Positions 1,523-12,906 of a stretch of DNA of 64,000 bases are shown here, piece after piece. The stretch is from Clostridia bacterium (GTDB lineage: Bacteria; Bacillota; Clostridia; Christensenellales; Aristaeellaceae), in NCBI GenBank assembly GCA_017464305.1, contig JAFUDS010000017.1, positions 1 to 64,000 on the forward strand, in the 5' to 3' direction. The notes beneath the pieces are model-generated. The model did no database searches. It saw only the letters and a list, made by a program, of their open reading frames with translations, and had not been told where the DNA came from. A program made the position numbers and the translations under genes. Numbering within the stretch: position 1 is the stretch's first letter; the number at the start of each line of letters is the position of its first letter.

Positions 1523-4500
1523 ATGTATCCAATTCTATTCGACGCGGAGGCCACATCCTGGGAGTCTTTCGGGGTGGGCGTGCTATCCGGCGCGATCTCC
1601 TGCGAAGTGGAAGAAAACCGGAACGGATCCTACGAGCTGGAGATGAAATATCCCATCAGCGGAGCCTATTATCGGGAGATCGGGCTAAGATCGTTGATTG
1701 TGGCCAAACCAAACCATGGGGACGGGCCGCAGCCCTTCCGGGTTTACAAAATCAGTAAACCCATCGGCGGCGTGGTAACGATCAACGCGCAGCATATCAG
1801 CTACGATCTATCCGGATACGTGGCAGCGCCATTCAAGGCGGCGGGGATCCGGGACGCGATGGCGAAAATCACCAGCGCGGGAACGGTATATCCGTCACCG
1901 TGCACATTCTCGCTTTCGACAGATATCGACGATGATAAAACCACGGAATCGAGATATCCTCAGAGCATCCGCTCCATCCTGGGTAAGGGAGATGGCAACC
2001 TGCTGGAAACCTACGGCGGAGAATGGCATTTTGATGGGTACCGGTGCGAACTGAAAGCGGAAAGAGGCGAAGATCGAGGCGTTGCGATCCGATACGGGAA
2101 GAACATGATCGATCTGAAGCAGGAGGAAAACAACGCAGAGGTTTGCACGGCAGTCTATCCCTATTATTTCAGCGGGGAGGACAATGTACTCATTACACTG
2201 CCAGAAAAGGTGATGCAGGTAGGGGCAGCGCAGGGATATTCCCGAGTGCTACCTGTTGACCTGACATCATACTTTGACGGGACACCGACGGCGGAGGATC
2301 TGCGGACGGTGGCCCGGAGCTACATCGAAGTAAACAATGTCGGCGTGCCGAAAGTCAACCTGACAATCAAATTTGTAAACCAGGAGACGGAGCAGGATCG
2401 AGTCGATCTATGCGACACGGTACAGGTACAGTTTGATAAGCTGGGCGTATCGGCATATGCGAAGTGCATCCGGGCCAAATGGGACACGCTGAAAGAGAGA
2501 TACATCGAGGCGGAGCTGGGCACACCGAAAGATAACCTGGCAGCAACGATTGTGACCATCTCCAAGGCGACGAAAGACCTGGAAACGATCCGGACAGATC
2601 TAAACGCAACCGCCGGGGAGATCAGGACAGAGCTGGCGACAACGGATACCAATATCCGGCAGGAAATCGCATCAACCGCACAACAGATCACGAATGATTA
2701 CACCACCCTCAACACGGAAACCGGGGAAGAACTGAGAGGCGTTATCACCCAAACGGCAGAGCAGCTGACGAGCGATTATACCGCGCTGAATACCCAGACG
2801 GGCGAAGAATTGCGGGGAACGATCACCCAGACAGCGGAGAGTCTCACAAGCGACTACACCGCGCTAAACTCCCAAACCGGTCAAGAGCTGCGGGGCGTTA
2901 TCACCCAGACAGCGGAGAGTCTCACAAGCGACTACACCGCGCTAAACTCCCAAACCGGCCAGGAGCTGCGGGGCGTTATCACCCAAACGGCGGAAAGTCT
3001 CACAAGCGACTACACCAACAAACTGGATGAAACAGAAAGCCATATCACCCAAACGGCCAGCGAAATAAAGGCGGAGGTGAAAAATAACAAAGAGGAGCTG
3101 CAAAGCGCCATCGATGTGCAGGCTGGCAGAATCGGCCTGGTTGTGGAAGGGACAGGAAGCAACGCAAAGATCAAACCGGCGCAGATTGTGGCGGCCATCA
3201 ACGATGGAGCTAGCTCCATCAAACTGAGCGCAGATCATATCACGCTCGACGGAAAAGCTGTAGCAAGCTCGCTATCGTCGCAAGATATCAATTGCGCCTC
3301 AATTACGGCGGAAAGCTTGCGAGCGTTTTATGCCGGAAATGGAAACCTGCTCATAAACGAGATAGAAGATTATCTGCTCGACCGACAAACCGGGATACTT
3401 GACGGCGTTGTATATGACGCAAGTGTAAGCGGGAATACATTGACGCTCAAGCGGTACGGAAACGCCGATGTAACTTTTAGCAAGGCCGCCACACTCAGTG
3501 TCGCGTATGGCGGCGATAACCAGGGAGACACGGCCACCTACACCGTCACAGGGACACCGGCGGAGAATTTCGGCGGCGAAGGCAAAAACTCAGTCACGGG
3601 AGAATTCACCGTCCACCAAAGCAAAACGGCAGCATACATCCTGGACAAGAACGGCTCAATGCGAGCACGGATCGATAACCCGCAATACGGGAACGGATGG
3701 GCGGCGGCCCAGGGCGATGTATCCTGGCCAGGGACAAATACATCGAGCGCAATCGCCACCTTCAAAGCGCCAAGCGGCACGGTGGACGGGACACAGGTCA
3801 CAAAGAGTTATTATCTCGACATCGTGAGCAGTGGATACAGCTCGACAACGAAGGTATATCTGCGGAACCCGGACGATCAGGCGGTCGCCGCGCTGGACGT
3901 CGGCAAGGTGTATGACGCCGGGAAGACGGCAGGCGCGGGCAGCGTCAAGATGGCGCTAAACACCAACACGAGCAAGATTGTGCTATCCGAAACCGGAACG
4001 GCGACGGAGTACGCGGTGAGCGCACAGGCTGGGATAACGTACAATTCCAGCACCCACAAGTACACACCATCGGCCAGCGCCCTGGTAGGCGGCACGGTAA
4101 TGGCGAGCAACACCGGAAGCGCTAGCGGGACGGAAGCATACGATGCAGGGTGGAAGGCAGCGCATGATAAATTCAGCAGCGAAACGTCATATAGCACGGA
4201 CGATAAGCTGGAAGTGAATTATCCACCTACGACGGTGGACGGGAGCGCACTAACGAGGGAATACTACCTGACGCTCGATGATGATTACGCCTACATCCGA
4301 AACGGCAGCAGAACCGGGACAGTTGTGGCCCGCGTAACGAACACGAAGAAATCCGGGTCAGATATTACGGGACTATCAAGTTCGTGGGACGGCAACACGT
4401 TCAAGGTAAGCACGTCAACAAGCGGGACGCTGCAAAGCGCGGATTGCACGGTGACAATCTACCCGACGAGCGACAGAACGCTCGACTATGGAGAAACGCT

Positions 4501-5080
4501 CACAGTAAGCGCCAGAGGAAACAATGTAGCCAGGCAGAGCATAAAGATTACAGCTCCGGCGGACAGATATGCAGCAGGATACGATTGGGGCGCTCAAGTA
4601 GGAAGCTGGCTGGATTACAGCGGGAGCCCAAATATACAGAGTCAAGGCCAACTGGCATATGGATATAACATATATCTGTATTATGTTACGAGCGACTCAC
4701 AGAAGCACTATAGAGCGAGATGGGAAGTACCGCCGGATAGATGGGACAGTGCGCTATCGACGGTGGCGCTTGTCAGCGACCAAGCCGTTAGCGGAAATGC
4801 AGCTGTACTGGGATATGATGTCCCGCTGAGACTGGCAGCAACAAATTCGGCAGGCAAGATTATCTACTGGGGAGAATGGAGAACGCCGCCCGATAACTCT
4901 GGAAGCGGTGGCGGAGGCAGCGTTTCGATATCTATCGATGATATTTACGCGACAAATTACCCCCCGACGGGAACGACGGCAACCCAAATATCCAGATTGA
5001 TTAGACAAGGCGGGTATGATTTTATTACATTCAGAGTAAACGCTGGCGGGACAACAAAACGATACAATATCGAACTATAA
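1523..5080 (+). CDS. Tail-tip / prophage endopeptidase-type tail protein with coiled-coil repeats
   Basis: 1185 residues, ten bases after the distal tail gene. Residues 1-350 resemble the N-terminal domain of phage minor structural proteins (Tal/gp44-like hub): start MYPILFDAEATSW, then VEENRNGSYELEMKYPISG. Residues 350-520 are a long helical coiled coil with four nearly identical 26-residue units (DYTALNSQTGQELRG core). Residues 520-1185 are beta-rich, with repeated Tyr/Gly segments, and are probably a receptor- or polysaccharide-facing part that I cannot assign. A Gly/Ser linker (GSGGGGS) precedes the last 50 residues. The family forms the central hub under Dit; whether this copy has peptidase activity cannot be told. 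Confidence 0.8.
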   Translation: MYPILFDAEATSWESFGVGVLSGAISCEVEENRNGSYELEMKYPISGAYYREIGLRSLIVAKPNHGDGPQPFRVYKISKPIGGVVTINAQHISYDLSGYVAAPFKAAGIRDAMAKITSAGTVYPSPCTFSLSTDIDDDKTTESRYPQSIRSILGKGDGNLLETYGGEWHFDGYRCELKAERGEDRGVAIRYGKNMIDLKQEENNAEVCTAVYPYYFSGEDNVLITLPEKVMQVGAAQGYSRVLPVDLTSYFDGTPTAEDLRTVARSYIEVNNVGVPKVNLTIKFVNQETEQDRVDLCDTVQVQFDKLGVSAYAKCIRAKWDTLKERYIEAELGTPKDNLAATIVTISKATKDLETIRTDLNATAGEIRTELATTDTNIRQEIASTAQQITNDYTTLNTETGEELRGVITQTAEQLTSDYTALNTQTGEELRGTITQTAESLTSDYTALNSQTGQELRGVITQTAESLTSDYTALNSQTGQELRGVITQTAESLTSDYTNKLDETESHITQTASEIKAEVKNNKEELQSAIDVQAGRIGLVVEGTGSNAKIKPAQIVAAINDGASSIKLSADHITLDGKAVASSLSSQDINCASITAESLRAFYAGNGNLLINEIEDYLLDRQTGILDGVVYDASVSGNTLTLKRYGNADVTFSKAATLSVAYGGDNQGDTATYTVTGTPAENFGGEGKNSVTGEFTVHQSKTAAYILDKNGSMRARIDNPQYGNGWAAAQGDVSWPGTNTSSAIATFKAPSGTVDGTQVTKSYYLDIVSSGYSSTTKVYLRNPDDQAVAALDVGKVYDAGKTAGAGSVKMALNTNTSKIVLSETGTATEYAVSAQAGITYNSSTHKYTPSASALVGGTVMASNTGSASGTEAYDAGWKAAHDKFSSETSYSTDDKLEVNYPPTTVDGSALTREYYLTLDDDYAYIRNGSRTGTVVARVTNTKKSGSDITGLSSSWDGNTFKVSTSTSGTLQSADCTVTIYPTSDRTLDYGETLTVSARGNNVARQSIKITAPADRYAAGYDWGAQVGSWLDYSGSPNIQSQGQLAYGYNIYLYYVTSDSQKHYRARWEVPPDRWDSALSTVALVSDQAVSGNAAVLGYDVPLRLAATNSAGKIIYWGEWRTPPDNSGSGGGGSVSISIDDIYATNYPPTGTTATQISRLIRQGGYDFITFRVNAGGTTKRYNIEL
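2696..3007 (+). repeat. Four in-frame 78-bp tandem repeats in the tail-tip gene
   Basis: Units start at 2696, 2774, 2852 and 2930, each 78 bp (26 residues), and a degenerate fifth unit begins at 3008. Units 3 and 4 are almost identical in DNA; units 1 and 2 are more diverged. Each unit keeps the pattern DYT-LN-TG-ELRG-ITQTAE-LTS, consistent with a trimeric coiled-coil stalk. Near-identity of neighbours suggests recent duplication or homogenisation by recombination. Confidence 0.9.
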
Positions 5081-5094
5081 GGAGGAAAAACAAA

Positions 5095-5385
5095 ATGACA
5101 AACCAAGTAACTCTACAGACCACCATCGACCTGATCAACAAAGCCATGGTAAACACTCAGAACCTACAGCTGCAGCCGACGGAACACAACGTGAACCTCA
5201 TCGCGGAGAGCCTGAAAAGCCTCCGCAATGTGGCGGCGATTGTGAATGATCTGTTTGCTACGGTCAAGATGTACGAGGACAAGGCGAAGGGCGAGCCTCA
5301 GCTGATCATCGAGCAGGGAGAGCCGGAACCGACGGAGGAAGATCATATCATCCAGCTGCAAGCGGAAGTCAGGGACAAAATGTGA
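5095..5385 (+). CDS. Small phage structural-region protein, function unknown
   Basis: 96 residues with a perfect AGGAGG site (5082-5087) eight bases before the ATG. The protein is mostly helical (residues 5-65), ends in an acidic Glu/Pro-rich tail, and has no membrane segment or recognisable domain. It lies between the tail-tip gene and a BppU-like gene in the same transcription unit, so a minor tail or baseplate role is inferred from position only. Confidence 0.6.
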   Translation: MTNQVTLQTTIDLINKAMVNTQNLQLQPTEHNVNLIAESLKSLRNVAAIVNDLFATVKMYEDKAKGEPQLIIEQGEPEPTEEDHIIQLQAEVRDKM

Positions 5386-5398
5386 AAGGAAGGGCAAG

Positions 5399-6157
5399 AT
5401 GGCAGTATTCGAAAAGTGGCTAAAGAACGACTTGAAAAAGCCGGTAACGGTGGAGCGCCTGGGCGGAAACATCTTTTCCAGGGACATCGGCGCGAACCAG
5501 ATCGGCGTCATTATCACAGACGATGGCGCAGAGGCTTCCATCACCGGGGACGTTACCGGATACGTTATCCGGGCAGATGGCGAAACGGTGATTGTCAGCG
5601 GAACGCTCGACGGCAACCGGGCCAGCATCATCCTACCCGCGGAATGCTACGCCATTGTCGGGATCATCAGCATCGTTATCAAAGTCGGCTCCACAACAGT
5701 GGGCGCTTGCACGGGCCACGTATATCAGACGTCAACGGACGCGATTGTGGATCCTGGGCAGGTTATCCCATCCGTAGAGGAACTGCTGGAAAAGATATCC
5801 ATCCTCAACAGCGAGATCGGCGACGCCGAAGCCTGGGCTGTAGGCCAGCGGGGCGGGGTGGACGTCGGGGAAGATGATCCTGCATACCAGAACAACGCGA
5901 AGTATTACGCCCAGAAGACGGCGGAGGATCGAGCCTCCACCAGCGGGGCGAGCCAAGCGGTGCAGCAGTATGCCAACGCGGCGGCTCAGAGCGCTGCACA
6001 GGCTGCGGGGAGCGCCAATGCGGCAGGGATAGCCCAGGCGGCTGCGGAGAAGGCGGAGGCGGATGTATTGGCCGCCATCGTGGCAGCACAGGGGAATGAC
6101 CTGCTGCGGATGGATGAGAATGGAGACTTCTATATCCTGGAAGAAACGGACGAATAA
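5399..6157 (+). CDS. Baseplate upper protein-like (BppU-type N-terminal domain)
   Basis: 252 residues. Residues 1-110 form a beta-rich domain with DVTGYVIRADGETVIVSG and AECYAIVGIISIVIKVG, resembling the N-terminal domain of BppU/phage_BR0599-type baseplate proteins that anchor receptor-binding proteins. Residues 125-235 are helical and Ala/Gln-rich (AAAQSAAQAAGSANAAG), like a trimeric neck. The last residues (DLLRMDENGDFYILEETDE) occur as a short tip in several tail proteins. It sits directly before the DGR target gene, so it may carry that protein on the baseplate; this is inference. Confidence 0.6.
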   Translation: MAVFEKWLKNDLKKPVTVERLGGNIFSRDIGANQIGVIITDDGAEASITGDVTGYVIRADGETVIVSGTLDGNRASIILPAECYAIVGIISIVIKVGSTTVGACTGHVYQTSTDAIVDPGQVIPSVEELLEKISILNSEIGDAEAWAVGQRGGVDVGEDDPAYQNNAKYYAQKTAEDRASTSGASQAVQQYANAAAQSAAQAAGSANAAGIAQAAAEKAEADVLAAIVAAQGNDLLRMDENGDFYILEETDE

Positions 6158-6178
6158 AGAAGGGAGCGAGAAAACGAG

Positions 6179-7927
6179 ATGGGAACCAAGAAGAACTACG
6201 GTGTCAACAACCAGCTGGAGCGCATCGCCAACGCTCTGGAGGCCCAGACGGGGAGCGTATCTGCGGCGGTGCTGGACGCAGCTTTCAGTGGCAGCATCGA
6301 CGGAACGAACACGACGGCGCTATTCCGCCGGTGGTGGCGGCTGGCTTGCGATCTGATCACTCGCAACGAGGGCGAGATCGACCGCTACGCCCTCCTCACC
6401 CGCTGGTTCACGCTGATCGGCGAGGCCTGGGGAGACAAAATCTACACCCTGCGGGGGCCGGACTATCGGGTATCGAACGGGAATACGGCTTTGACCCCCA
6501 TGGCCGACTTGGCGGGGAAAGAGGCGGCTCCTCTTTGCACAGAGGTATCCGCCAACGAATTCCACTGGATGGACGAAGACCCGATGTACTGGTGGGTCCG
6601 GTTCAACGGCATCAGCAAGGCGGACGGGACGATGGACATCAAGGCGGTGGAAGGGATCGACGATGAATTCGACATCACGGGGAACCTGGCCCCGGTATAC
6701 ACCGGGAGCATCGGGCTATGGCACATCCGTTTCACCGACGGGAGCTACGAATACCACACCTGGGCGACACGGCAGGGCGGCGGGATGCATCCCTACGAGA
6801 GCGACGTGGCCCCGGACGGAACCCACCGGGCGATGCACTGGGAGGCGACCTTTGGCGGGAGCCTGACGAAGGATGGGAAGCTGACCAGCGGCAGCGGATA
6901 CGGCAGCGGATGGGAGCGGAACGAGAACACGCCCAACTGGCGGCGAGCCGCTACCACGGGCATTGCGGACGCGCGGAAATGGGGAAGCTACGAGGGCCTA
7001 TACAGCGACACGGAAAGATGCCACCTGCTGGATGAATGGCAATTCCGACACTACAACCTGGAGAACAGCGGCATCCTGGAAGGCTGCACGGGATACACTA
7101 CGCAATGCGTCGTGGCCGTGGCGGAGGAAAACGCGAAGCGGGTTGTGGTCACCACGGCAAACGGGGCGAACTTCCTGGTGGGGAGCTGCATCGAGGTCGG
7201 CACCCACGGCGACGGCGTAAACACCGACCGGAATACGGCGGGGAATTATGACATCATCGGCTGCGCCACGATCATCAGCATCGAGAACGTCACCATCGAC
7301 GGGACGGCATACTCTGCGCTGAACCTGGACATCGCCACGGGGGTGAACATTCCGGCAACGGCGTATGTAAGCACCATGCCATGGGTTCCGGGCAGCACGG
7401 AACGGCTCCCCGGCCGCAAGGACGGCAGCCTGTACAACGTGACGAACGGCAAGACCCCGGCGCGGATCGGCGGGATCGAGGTTATCGATGGGGCGTATGC
7501 CATCGGGCTTGACCCGCTATGGAACAGCGACTGGAACGCAGACCGCGACCCGAAGAGCATCTACAGCGTATACGTGGTGCGGGACGCGACGAAACAGGGC
7601 GGAAGCATTAGTGCGAGCCACACGCTGGTAGGAACCTTCACGGGGCCGAACTCTGGATGGCAATATCCGCGGCACTTCCAAACCCGCAAGGATGATATGC
7701 TGATGCCGGAAGGATTCCCCGGAAGCGGCAGCACGTACCTGAAGTCGGCCTTCAGTTTCTATGGCGGCTCCGGCGTTCGTGCGCCCTGGCTGTTTGCGCG
7801 TCTCGGCCTTGGGGCTCCTGCGGGCTTGGCCTGTGCTGGTGGCAGCAGTGCGCCCTCGGCCGCGAGCTGGGATGGCCGCCCCCGGCTTTCGGGTTCTGGG
7901 AAGACGCGGGGTGAATGGGCGGCGTAA
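6179..7927 (+). CDS. DGR target protein: phage receptor-binding/tail protein with variable C-terminus
   Basis: 582 residues. Residues 1-90 are helical (VNNQLERIANALEAQTG) and probably attach it to the tail. The rest is rich in Trp, Gly and Tyr, like C-type-lectin or formylglycine-enzyme folds used by DGR targets. The variable repeat encodes residues 523-571. Compared with the template, fourteen codons differ there: residues 526, 528, 530, 541, 543, 544, 547, 554, 556, 557, 558, 561, 563 and 565. The invariant frame between them includes GVRAPWLFA, AGLACA and GRP. By analogy with Bordetella phage Mtd it should bind the host surface and change specificity by mutagenic retrohoming. A C-run at 7879-7883 is one C longer than in the template and sets the final 14 residues; see findings. 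The ATG follows AGGGAG at 6161-6166. Confidence 0.9.
   Translation: MGTKKNYGVNNQLERIANALEAQTGSVSAAVLDAAFSGSIDGTNTTALFRRWWRLACDLITRNEGEIDRYALLTRWFTLIGEAWGDKIYTLRGPDYRVSNGNTALTPMADLAGKEAAPLCTEVSANEFHWMDEDPMYWWVRFNGISKADGTMDIKAVEGIDDEFDITGNLAPVYTGSIGLWHIRFTDGSYEYHTWATRQGGGMHPYESDVAPDGTHRAMHWEATFGGSLTKDGKLTSGSGYGSGWERNENTPNWRRAATTGIADARKWGSYEGLYSDTERCHLLDEWQFRHYNLENSGILEGCTGYTTQCVVAVAEENAKRVVVTTANGANFLVGSCIEVGTHGDGVNTDRNTAGNYDIIGCATIISIENVTIDGTAYSALNLDIATGVNIPATAYVSTMPWVPGSTERLPGRKDGSLYNVTNGKTPARIGGIEVIDGAYAIGLDPLWNSDWNADRDPKSIYSVYVVRDATKQGGSISASHTLVGTFTGPNSGWQYPRHFQTRKDDMLMPEGFPGSGSTYLKSAFSFYGGSGVRAPWLFARLGLGAPAGLACAGGSSAPSAASWDGRPRLSGSGKTRGEWAA
7744..7892 (+). repeat. DGR variable repeat (VR)
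   Basis: Aligned to the template repeat at a fixed offset of 470 bases from 7744 to 7880. Homology begins abruptly at GTCGGCCTTCA. In 137 aligned bases there are 20 differences and all are at template adenines: 13 A to G, 5 A to C and 2 A to T. No G, C or T of the template is changed. Six of 26 template adenines are unchanged. The 3' end is a GC-rich stretch (GGCCGCCCCC), as expected for the initiation-of-mutagenic-homing site. After a one-base length difference the match continues for nine bases with two more A-site differences. Confidence 0.97.
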
Positions 7928-7936
7928 GCCGACCAG

Positions 7937-7953
7937 AGGGGGAGCATCCCCCT
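7937..7953 (+). other. Hairpin just downstream of VR
   Basis: A perfect 7-bp stem (AGGGGGA / TCCCCCT) closes a GCA loop and is followed by TTTT. It starts ten bases after the target stop codon and 45 bases after VR. Hairpins or cruciforms just 3' of VR stimulate retrohoming in the Bordetella phage DGR; the T-run means it could equally be a weak intrinsic terminator of the target gene. Confidence 0.6.
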
Positions 7954-8138
7954 TTTGACCCAGGAAGAAGAACCAAAGGGGCCAAAGCAACCGAAACAAG
8001 CGAGCCGCCCAGTGGGCAGCCGCGACCATTGAGGATGCGGAAAGGCCCTACAAACTAAACCAACAACCACCATATCGGTGAAGCCACCGAAAAGGCAGCT
8101 GCGCCTAACAGCAGCATCCAACAACGCACGGAAACATG

Positions 8139-8650
8139 GGCATGGGAAGGACATGCCAAAGGCCCTCCGGGGACGGTAAACCGTCCCGGAGCGGCCCAAG
8201 GGTTTGATCGTGTGTCGGCCTTCAATTTCAATGGCAGCTCCGGCGTTCGTGCGCCCTGGCTGTTTGCGAATCTCAACAATGGGGCTAATGCGGGCTTGGC
8301 CTGTGCTAATGGCAACAATACGCCCTCGAACGCGAACTGGAATGGCCGCCCCGGAATTCGGCAAGGCGAAGGGAGAAACCAACTCCCTCGCCGGAAATAA
8401 GATGCCAATGGGCATCCAATACGCGATCAAATCCGCGAAATGAAAATCGGTTTATCCCAGCACTGAGAAATCAGGGGCGGCGGAAAAGCCACCGCCCGCG
8501 GCGAGTAGAAGAGAGCACGCGCCTGCGGCACCCCAAAACGGCGAAGAGCCAAAGACCGGGGAGAGCCGTCGAAAGGACGGGCTAACCGAAAACCGCTGAA
8601 GCCACACCGAAAGCGCACAACCCGGAAGGGAAGACATAAAGCCAAAGGGG
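8139..8650 (+). ncRNA. DGR template RNA region (TR with flanking structured spacer)
   Basis: The DNA between the target gene (7927) and the reverse transcriptase (8663) has no convincing ORF in the sense strand and holds the template repeat. Upstream of TR are two hairpins: GGCATG/CATGCC (8139-8157) and a long one at 8161-8196 with a TAAA loop. Downstream are a GC-rich hairpin near 8474-8497 (GGGCGGCGG against CCACCGCCC) and a CCGTC/GACGG hairpin near 8568-8582. DGR RNAs known from other phages extend from TR into the spacer before the RT gene and serve as both template and priming scaffold. The transcript ends are not defined and no promoter is obvious. 7954-8138 shows no gene. Confidence 0.7.
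8214..8361 (+). repeat. DGR template repeat (TR)
   Basis: Non-coding donor copy of VR. Read in the VR frame, all 26 adenines (to 8350) fall in fourteen codons: twelve AAC/AAT, one AGC and one ACG, at first and second codon positions. AAY codons can become almost any amino acid by adenine mutation without making stop codons, and such enrichment is a hallmark of DGR templates. Framework residues are encoded without adenine. The 3' boundary has GGCCGCCCC with one C fewer than VR, then GGAATTCGG. Confidence 0.97.
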
Positions 8651-8662
8651 AAAGGACAAGGA

Positions 8663-9997
8663 TTGAAGCAAAAGTATCGAGACCTGGACAGGAATCTATG
8701 CTACGAAGCGGTGGACAAATGCTTTAACGGCAAATGGAACCGGAACGATGTGCTGACGGACATCGAAGAATGGACGGGGTACAGCCGGAACCAAATCCGA
8801 GAATACAAGATCGACCACCCTGGGCATGAATTCCCCATCAAATTCGCGATTATGGACGAAAGAGCCGACGCGCTGATGGATATGATCCAGGAGATCGAGA
8901 TGGGCATTGACCCAGACTTCGACCTTGTAAAAATCCACAGGCGAGCGGACGCGGCAACTGGGAAGATGCGAGACATCGCATATCTGTGCATACGGATGCA
9001 GCTGTTAGGGCACTGCCTACAATTAGGGCTGGAACCGCTATTCCGGGCAAGAATCCTTCCTTGCCAGCACGCCAGCCTACCGGGAAGAGGGCCGACAAGG
9101 CTGGTACGCCAGGTGCGGCGACTATTGCGGAAACGGCACATCAAATACTTTCGGAAGACGGATTGCAAGAACGCCTACGGCAGCACGATGTACGCGGACG
9201 TGATCGAGATCATCCGGGAAGAGATACCGGACGCGACATGGATACTGCGGGGACTGGAAGTCATGGCCCGGTACGCCCCGGGTGGGCATCTGATCATTGG
9301 CGGATTTCTGGACGCATGGCTATTCAACCTGGTGATGAGCTACGCCATCAGGGAAGCATTGAACGCCGCCGGGAAACGGCGGGGACAGCGAATCCGCATG
9401 GTGGCGGGATGTGCGGACTACATGGACGATGTGGTTTTCATGAGCGGGAGCAAGAAGGGCCTGAAGGAAGGGACGAAGATATGCGGGGCATACCTTCTGG
9501 AAAGGTTCGACATCCAGAGCAAGAGCACGACGGGGATCATCCGGCTGCTGGAGCGGGAGGAGGAACGGAAACGGAAGGCCCGGGCCAGCCCTGCGGCGAG
9601 AGGATGCCCGGCCATCGACGTGGCGGGATACCGCATTAGCCGGACGCACTGCCGGATGAGAGGACGGAACGCGAAACGGACGAGGCGAAGCTACCTGCGA
9701 GCCTGGAGGGAATACCGGGAGACGGGAACCATCGGGCGGCAGCGGGCGGCGCAGATCATCAGCCGGAACGGGATCATCCAAGGGGCGGACAGCTACCGAT
9801 TCATAGAGAAATACCAGGTAGTTACGCTGCGGCGGATGGCCAGAAAGATCATGGGATACTGGGGACGAAAACAGGAACGAGAGAGAAAGGAGATTATGCA
9901 AGATGCTGTGGAGAAATACAGAAAGCACAGAGAAGCCCTCGAAGGTTACGATTGGAACCATGCCGGAGGGAAACCGATTCGTGCGGCTGGCGGATAA
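8663..9997 (+). CDS. DGR-type reverse transcriptase
   Basis: 444 residues, TTG start preceded by AAAGGA. Reverse-transcriptase motifs in order: GKMRDI (100-105) and HASLPGRG (136-143) in the fingers; motif A KTDCKNAYG with the first catalytic Asp at 167; motif B-like IIGGFLDAWLFNL (211-223); catalytic YMDD at 253-256; a thumb region after LLERFDIQSKST. Classic DGR enzymes carry an IGxxxSQ motif; here the equivalent place reads IGGFLDA, so the SQ pair is replaced. A helical N-terminal region of about 95 residues precedes the fingers. It makes cDNA from the TR RNA with errors at adenines and so diversifies the target gene. No Avd gene is seen nearby. DGR assignment rests mainly on the TR/VR pair beside it. 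Confidence 0.9.
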   Translation: MKQKYRDLDRNLCYEAVDKCFNGKWNRNDVLTDIEEWTGYSRNQIREYKIDHPGHEFPIKFAIMDERADALMDMIQEIEMGIDPDFDLVKIHRRADAATGKMRDIAYLCIRMQLLGHCLQLGLEPLFRARILPCQHASLPGRGPTRLVRQVRRLLRKRHIKYFRKTDCKNAYGSTMYADVIEIIREEIPDATWILRGLEVMARYAPGGHLIIGGFLDAWLFNLVMSYAIREALNAAGKRRGQRIRMVAGCADYMDDVVFMSGSKKGLKEGTKICGAYLLERFDIQSKSTTGIIRLLEREEERKRKARASPAARGCPAIDVAGYRISRTHCRMRGRNAKRTRRSYLRAWREYRETGTIGRQRAAQIISRNGIIQGADSYRFIEKYQVVTLRRMARKIMGYWGRKQERERKEIMQDAVEKYRKHREALEGYDWNHAGGKPIRAAGG

Positions 9998-10232
9998 CAT
10001 CCGGGAAGAGGTACGGAAAGAGGAGAGTGGCGAAGAAGGGCAGGGCACCGAGCAGAAGGTGTACGTGTACGACGAGGTGCAATTCGAGCTGGAAGCCGAA
10101 CGGGAAGAAACCGAGAAGGACATCAAGAAGGACTTTGAGGGCTGGTGGGAATACGGCAGCCAGGAGGAAGGCAGCGAGCCGACGCTGGAGGAACGAGTGG
10201 CGGCGATTGAGGACTTTTTGCTGGAGATGTAA
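9903..10232 (+). CDS. Small acidic phage protein, function unknown
   Basis: 109 residues. It starts at an ATG ten bases after AAGGAG and overlaps the last 95 bases of the reverse transcriptase in another frame. It is very acidic, with VYVYDEVQFELEAEREE in the middle and TLEERVAAIEDFLLEM at the end, a pattern common in small Clostridia-prophage proteins found between tail genes and the lysis cassette. It could be a tail accessory protein. It does not look like the basic four-helix Avd protein of other DGRs, although it sits where an accessory factor might. Confidence 0.65.
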   Translation: MLWRNTESTEKPSKVTIGTMPEGNRFVRLADNIREEVRKEESGEEGQGTEQKVYVYDEVQFELEAEREETEKDIKKDFEGWWEYGSQEEGSEPTLEERVAAIEDFLLEM

Positions 10233-12832: not shown

Positions 12833-12906
12833 TGAGCCCGGCGGGATTCGAACCCACGACCTTTTGATTCGTAGTCAAACACTCTATCCAGCTGAGCTAC
12901 GAGCCC
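12833..12906 (-). tRNA. tRNA-Arg (anticodon ACG)
   Basis: Minus-strand cloverleaf: acceptor GGGCTCG with a matching 3' strand, D-arm GCTCAGCTGGATAGAG, anticodon stem TTTGA/TCAAA around CTACGAA (anticodon ACG), T-loop GTTCGAA. CCA is encoded at 12832-12830. The 3' end faces the prophage, which makes it the probable phage attachment site. ACG is modified to ICG by TadA in bacteria. Confidence 0.96.

Follow-up and report, generated by a model that had tools for sequence, protein, structure and literature searches.

The diversity-generating retroelement (DGR) of Bordetella phage BPP-1, arranged in the order mtd-avd-TR-brt, couples a variable repeat (VR) at the C-terminus of a tail protein to a non-coding template repeat (TR) next to a reverse transcriptase (RT), and its VR differs from the TR at adenines only. 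The BPP-1 VR has a GC-rich end followed by a hairpin, which is required and carries a GRNA loop (Guo 2011, PMC3240598). A motif 4 hallmark of DGR RTs, (I/V/L)GxxxSQ, was reported in 90% of the 155 DGRs of the DiGReF collection, with SP, SH, NQ, PA, AQ or VQ in the other 15 (PMC3521204). The same source proposed SQ to be vital for adenine errors, though maybe not absolutely necessary, and put its variants down to possible sequencing errors or recent inactivation; PMC4244168 likewise regards SQ-less RTs as probably inactivated or missequenced. Here we analyze a 64 kb stretch of Clostridia bacterium contig JAFUDS010000017.1 (positions 1 to 64,000; hereafter, the window), which on the sequence evidence almost certainly contains a complete, prophage-borne DGR from a Clostridia-type gut bacterium, its RT belonging to an SQ-less clade that has kept adenine-specific change. 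The window DGR shares with that of BPP-1 the tail-protein target, the non-coding TR by the RT, the adenine-only differences and, as described in Guo 2011, the GC-rich VR end with a hairpin behind it. It departs from BPP-1 in having no Avd-like gene detected among the cassette ORFs and ten neighbours, in a GTAA rather than GRNA hairpin loop, and in carrying DA instead of SQ in motif 4. Elements of this kind are already known; what the locus adds is an RT clade without the best-known DGR RT signature that has nonetheless kept the adenine-only outcome.

To establish the relationship between the two repeats, we compared VR positions 7744-7880 with TR positions 8214-8350 base by base. The two copies differ at 20 of the 137 bp, in every case at a template adenine (13 to G, 5 to C and 2 to T), and the remaining 6 of 26 template adenines, as well as all 111 non-adenine bases, are identical in the VR. 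Under a hypergeometric null, the probability that 20 differences all fall on 26 of 137 sites is 4e-19. The template adenines sit in eight AAT, four AAC, one AGC and one ACG codons, and all 14 codons are altered in the VR. These figures reproduce exactly the differences and codon counts reported by a previous sequence-only reading of this DNA. Its layout, with the template outside any gene, the variable copy at the end of a tail gene and an RT following, also agrees with the open reading frame (ORF) listing, in which the VR forms the 3' end of ORF 6179-7927, the TR is intergenic and the RT occupies ORF 8663-9997. The end that it gave for the element (8361) has to be moved 9 bp upstream, to 8352, where homology stops. 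The full repeat therefore comprises 139 bp (VR 7744..7882 and TR 8214..8352, both on the forward strand), with 113 non-adenine bases and none altered. A same-strand scan of the 64 kb, using offsets of 60-6000 bp and runs of at least 40 bp with at least three mismatches, all at one template base, returned this TR/VR pair as the sole adenine-only run; it detected no C-only or T-only runs, and the single G-only run was a portion of this pair read backwards.

The same pattern is present in relatives of the window cassette, designated here by locus numbers. Across the 27 loci of the RT clade with a repeat pair, window included, 441 of 742 template adenines are altered versus 6 of 3025 other bases, the latter a low estimate; this count takes L040 and L041, which occupy separate places in a single record and share one VR, as two loci. 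Addition of L052, L111, L113, L116 and L117 brings the totals to 522 of 870 template adenines and 13 of 3633 non-adenine bases. Ten viral contigs (L034-L041, L044 and L051) carry an identical 146 bp TR. In nine of them, with eight distinct VRs (L039 omitted for an indel, the VR of L038 truncated), the VR is variable in 26 of 29 adenine columns versus 1 of 117 others, and the stretch past the TR differs by 0.8-6.4% from that of L037. The sequence-only reading had anticipated VRs varying only at adenine-matched sites over a constant TR, and the related phage type bears this out, its VR variation being nearly confined to adenine sites. Among L037 and its relatives, every covering VR has the same alteration at the first adenine and at the last two (the misaligned L039 row aside); some end-of-repeat adenine differences are hence fixed, not fresh mutations.

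A closer comparison is afforded by L013 (= L015), a Clostridia bacterium metagenome-assembled genome from roe deer omasum and a 93% identical relative. Five bases separate the two TRs, and there each VR follows its own TR (four equal, the fifth an adenine change). Of the 26 shared adenine sites, 17 differ between the VRs, as do 3 of the 111 shared non-adenine sites, all three of which are TR differences. That each VR tracks its own TR indicates that copying continued after the two phages diverged. Taken as sequences, these repeats demonstrate adenine-only transfer from TR to VR, tracking by each VR of its own TR and, in a related phage type, population variation nearly confined to adenine sites; the identification of the element as a DGR made by the earlier reading is thus supported by the adenine-only pair, the adjoining RT and the VR variation in relatives.

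The window RT (8663..9997, forward strand; 444 aa, TTG start) matches Pfam RVT_1 with an E-value of 6e-5, below the gathering score, and the RT family PHROG 1423 at 3e-25; its sole PDB match at E ≤ 1 is 8ub7 (E 5e-5), which we take to be the BPP-1 RT. The catalytic YMDD lies at 9419..9430 (forward strand). Motif 4, which had not been remarked upon in the earlier reading, reads IGGFLDA, unlike the DGR hallmark, with DA (D217, A218; 9311..9316, forward strand) at the position held by SQ in most DGR RTs. The window segment IGGFLDAWLFN aligns ungapped with IGSYLSQYLANFY of gut-phage DGR RTs. A gapped PDB alignment that placed AW opposite SQ was rejected, as ungapped alignment with IGSYLSQYLANFYMS gives DA.

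To determine how general this motif is, we relied on three alignment searches of viral contigs, which yielded 25 loci with a DA-containing pattern, 37 with the N-terminal part of the RT and 31 with the target protein. None of the 25 loci of the DA-containing query held the alternative pattern, making that query unfit to prove the motif general, and the motif-blind and target-protein scans were made for this reason. The motif-blind scan, using about the first 200 RT residues, recovered 27 loci with at least 36% identity, every one of them with DA (25 on contigs of the DA-pattern search, plus L021 and the new L052); the 10 more distant loci have SQ, SP, SC or ST. The target-protein scan, in which 11 of 31 loci were examined and most others were contigs already found, added EA (L111), ES (L113; L118 is an exact duplicate and was not counted) and two further instances of DA (L116 and L117). 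L029 and L048 end before the pair. On an RT tree inferred with the motif 4 columns removed (37 RTs), the rows with an acidic motif form one clade (support 100/99), inside which the DA rows form a clade of their own (97/96); the next branch out carries SC/ST (99/98 for all together), and DA, EA or ES is present in 23 of 23 clade rows. L005 and L080, on long branches in the first tree, were left out of the second, and near-copies and short rows were left out of both. As aligned, motif 4 of the clade is IGGYxDA, with EA/ES in an early branch, and the clade spans about 35-95% RT identity. L076 (ST), in the adjoining clade, also harbors an adenine-only pair, with 14 of 25 adenines altered.

Retention of adenine-specific change in a clade without SQ suggests that the adenine errors of DGR RTs do not stem from this dipeptide. 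The SQ variants of DiGReF likewise combine an altered SQ with retained adenine exchanges (PMC3521204, in the passages cited); unlike those variants (15/155), DA, EA or ES runs throughout a deep clade in which VR varies at the population level. The DGRs in clades 1-6 of Roux et al. 2021 (PMC8144416) are likewise carried by viruses of gut Firmicutes, with structural proteins as targets. The word "motif" is absent from the main text of that paper, and literature searches, covering listings and passages of papers, yielded no description of a DA/EA/ES clade.

Adenine-changed pairs also accompany SQ-type RTs, namely those from human faecal phages (L022, L024, L025 and L026) and that of L079. Their motif is IGS[YF]LSQ, their identity to the window RT is 22-27% for the four faecal phages and 30% for L079, and the L025 pair has mismatches at 2 of 72 non-adenine sites. 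Their spectrum of changes at AAY codons is similar to that of the DA loci. The first adenine of AAY is altered in 66% of cases in 27 DA loci versus 74% in ten SQ loci (p 0.14), and the second in 53% versus 54% (p 0.94). The G/T/C shares are 0.42/0.39/0.19 in DA versus 0.40/0.36/0.24 in SQ loci at the first adenine (p 0.67), and 0.54/0.21/0.26 versus 0.51/0.24/0.25 at the second (p 0.91). The DA and SQ spectra are therefore alike at AAY codons, the scope to which this likeness applies; the loci cannot be treated as independent of one another, and the figures also reflect selection on the target.

PMC4244168 takes SQ-less RTs for probably inactivated or missequenced enzymes, which raises the question of whether the window holds an inactive relic, left by a single old retrohoming event and with an RT dead since. 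Related cassettes do decay: L110 retains only an RT remnant, and the RT ORF of L021 is frameshifted at about 8935, directly after motif 4 and in a T run, through either an error or inactivation. Against a relic, however, the 444 aa reading frame of the window RT is uninterrupted and includes YMDD, the open RTs of L013, of a second cassette in the same genome bin (contig C12) and of the window are 93-95% identical, each VR follows its own TR wherever the window and L013 TRs part (5 bases), and many different VRs coexist with one TR in the related phage type. We consequently regard a relic as very unlikely. A DGR also accounts better for the data than ordinary duplication or gene conversion followed by base editing, such as adenine deamination, without reverse transcription. 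Changes from A to G do make up 13 of the 20 in the window, which favours this alternative, but 7 of 20 are to C or T, and the 441 changes pooled over 27 loci include 94 to C and 122 to T. An RT ORF moreover adjoins the clade pairs (although the RT was itself the query that recovered most of these loci), and both the hairpin and the RNA element described below are conserved, leaving base editing exceedingly improbable.

Assemblers may stumble at such repeats, and the pair could in principle stem from mixed VR and TR reads or from a strain chimaera: C12 begins just past its VR end, L042 looks collapsed, and the genome bin is 69% complete. A chimaera would not, however, put all differences on template adenines, and the pattern recurs in about 30 other contigs, so that we give an artefact hardly any credence. 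Several observations do weigh against a complete DGR of an SQ-less clade as set out above. The case is drawn from sequence, and DA is assigned to motif 4 by sequence alignment. The trees comprise DGR RTs and no non-DGR RT. Pairs were located by adenine-only runs and then extended through non-adenine mismatches, which makes the pooled non-adenine rate a low estimate. The TR of L113 (ES, 6745-6890) has just 14 adenines and its pair 4 non-adenine mismatches, and this element may be a decaying DGR. Outside AAY, the G share at adenines is 0.81 in DA versus 0.62 in SQ loci (p 0.02, uncorrected), and at AAY the DA loci are unlike a mixed group of seven SP/SA/NQ/SC/ST loci (p 0.005 and 0.05); selection on the target could produce these spectrum differences. 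A sequence search of the PDB with the variable domain of the target, a candidate C-type lectin fold, returned no credible match, and the model of the RNA element finds no match in L076 in spite of its adenine-only pair.

The cassette is ordered as target gene, hairpin region, TR, structured RNA, RT and small acidic ORF. The window VR ends in GGCCGCCCCCGGCTTT and the TR in GGCCGCCCCGGAATT, giving a GC-rich VR end, the putative initiation of mutagenic homing (IMH) site, that reads differently from the TR end (IMH*). CGGCTTT constitutes the VR end in 12 of 19 loci and the TR end in 6 of 19, and the two ends are alike in L016 and L021. Bases beyond the run of C at this end seem uncopied, so transfer may reach its 3' limit at this point. 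Just 3' of the VR, a conserved GCGGGGTGAATGG (7906..7918, forward strand), identical in 16 of 19 loci (exceptions L031, L043 and L050), encodes the ...RGEW end of the target. It is followed by an inverted repeat predicted to form a hairpin or cruciform (7916..7935, forward strand), with a 7 bp stem containing 1 mismatch, in line with the GC-rich stems of 7-10 bp typical of DGRs, and a GTAA loop that includes the target stop codon TAA (7925-7927). A stem after the VR reaches a shuffled p ≤ 0.05 in 17 of 19 loci (300 shuffles each; exceptions L046, 0.60, and L047, 0.08), and stems vary in sequence yet pair across loci. The loop is GTAA in 12 of 19 loci, window included, and another sequence in 7; a GRNA tetraloop occurs in 0 of 19. 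A second GC-rich hairpin followed by T's (7937..7953, forward strand) is terminator-like and may function as such. The C run itself has four C in the window TR (8349-8352), and five in the window VR (7879-7883) and in the C12 TR.

A structured RNA element 3' of the TR (8442..8598, forward strand) comprises 20 pairs in 4 helices and shows covariation. In the alignment of 17 loci, from which L021 and L032 were excluded for long inserts, 18 of 20 pairs are changed on both sides, and 88.4% of cells are paired versus 31.5-54.3% when the structure is slid, a value attained by 0 of 500 shuffles. The RNA model, run on 26 sources, yielded a match between TR and RT in 12: the window, its near-copy C12 and six loci outside the model (L021, L032, L111, L113, L116 and L117), plus weaker matches in L042 and the non-DA loci L079, L023 and L022 (E 0.002 to 0.07). 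The 14 sources with no match between TR and RT include L029 (incomplete), L110 (cassette gone) and the pair-bearing L024, L025, L026 and L077. The element has no match in Rfam. It is probably the RT-binding and priming part of the template RNA, with BPP-1 as the model for such a role of RNA downstream of the TR. Neither this element nor the hairpin after the VR nor the C12 cassette featured in the sequence-only reading.

Searches for the Avd family gave no match for the ORFs of the window cassette (Pfam, PHROGs and PADLOC) or for ten neighbours (Pfam and PHROGs), and no Avd was seen in the ORF lists of relatives; there is little space between VR and TR. Avd accompanies 62% of DGR RTs and is not required, according to the passages cited from PMC8934634. 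A small acidic ORF overlapping the RT end (9903..10232, forward strand) is conserved beside the cassette. It presents a weak match to PHROG 37768 (unknown function) and a net charge of -9 to -23 and, by ORF lists, is found in 16 of 17 loci, L031 being the exception; in L049 it is located between VR and TR. A search of viral contigs with this ORF returned 10 contigs, all with an RT of the same type as that of the window. A role as Avd replacement was considered and rejected, since the ORF is kept in L110, where only an RT remnant survives; its retention there makes a tail-module protein the more likely identity, and we lean to this assignment.

By analogy with BPP-1, the TR region would be transcribed jointly with the downstream structured RNA, and the RT would copy the TR RNA, misincorporating opposite adenines only. 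The resulting cDNA would then take the place of the VR, at the end of the tail gene; the 3' boundary of this replacement would presumably be set by the GC-rich terminus of the VR together with the hairpin behind it, and the outcome would be new tail-tip variants, probably for receptor binding. A further proposal, which we hold tentatively and with somewhat less than even confidence, is that the acidic clade grips its template differently (D/E-A/S in place of S-Q), operates free of Avd and uses its own downstream RNA scaffold, SQ being a marker of ancestry rather than the cause of mutagenesis.

The target (6179..7927, forward strand) is a putative prophage tail or receptor-binding-type protein of 582 aa with a C-terminal VR, as judged from its ORF, PHROG matches and position in the tail module; it matches PHROG 17147 (E 5e-95, unknown function) and the tail protein family PHROG 5302 (2e-8). 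Pfam and PHROGs identify upstream the end of a tape measure gene, Dit and a tail endopeptidase gene, together with two ORFs without a match, and, downstream, a holin and an SH3-domain protein that weakly matches an amidase. A tRNA lies at 12833-12906, and similarity to L013 ends within it, as at an attachment site. Beyond it, a large ORF from 13057 reads, by eye, like a host nucleotidase. The succession of tRNA and nucleotidase-like host ORF places the cassette region probably at the right end of the prophage, the tRNA being the probable end itself. Inside the tail endopeptidase gene there is a 78 bp tandem repeat of 3.8 copies (2718-3016).

Among 100 near genomes, 4 have a match to the window RT at E ≤ 0.001, as have 9 among 396 from the order, own genome included in both, with 7 of the other 8 in the order at 24-32% identity; in a phylum sample, the single match at 1e-20 among 398 genomes was the own genome. 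Searches of viral contigs with the RT alone and with an exact 30-base repeat query returned no match. The second, partial cassette in the same genome bin resides on contig C12 (L014; 6368 bp). Its RT is 95% identical to that of the window, its TR differs from the window TR at 2 of 139 bases, and the contig starts directly past its VR end, looking as if assembly had broken at the variable repeat. In L042 (5690-5840), the target gene passes directly into TR-like sequence with no second copy, as if VR and TR had been merged into one by a deletion or during assembly. L110 (5001-7140) contains the target gene (5001-6680), no TR/VR pair and an RT remnant (6738-6971) of about the last 75 C-terminal residues, partly overlapping the small acidic ORF, and probably represents natural loss of the cassette. 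Weaker second adenine-only runs in L016, L021 and L046 probably reflect internal repeats of the tail gene and were set aside; L121 also shows such a run.

An SQ-less lineage with adenine-only change constitutes a natural experiment against the proposal of SQ as the cause of adenine-only errors by DGR RTs (PMC3521204) and, if the proposal of a different template grip is true, the series SQ, SC/ST, EA/ES and DA on the tree would amount to a natural substitution experiment. L110 and L042 look like natural cases of loss and collapse, respectively. The conserved RNA element after the TR offers a handle for locating such cassettes, and the clade calls for caution in DGR finders and RT classifiers, which should neither filter on SQ nor read SQ-less RTs as broken.

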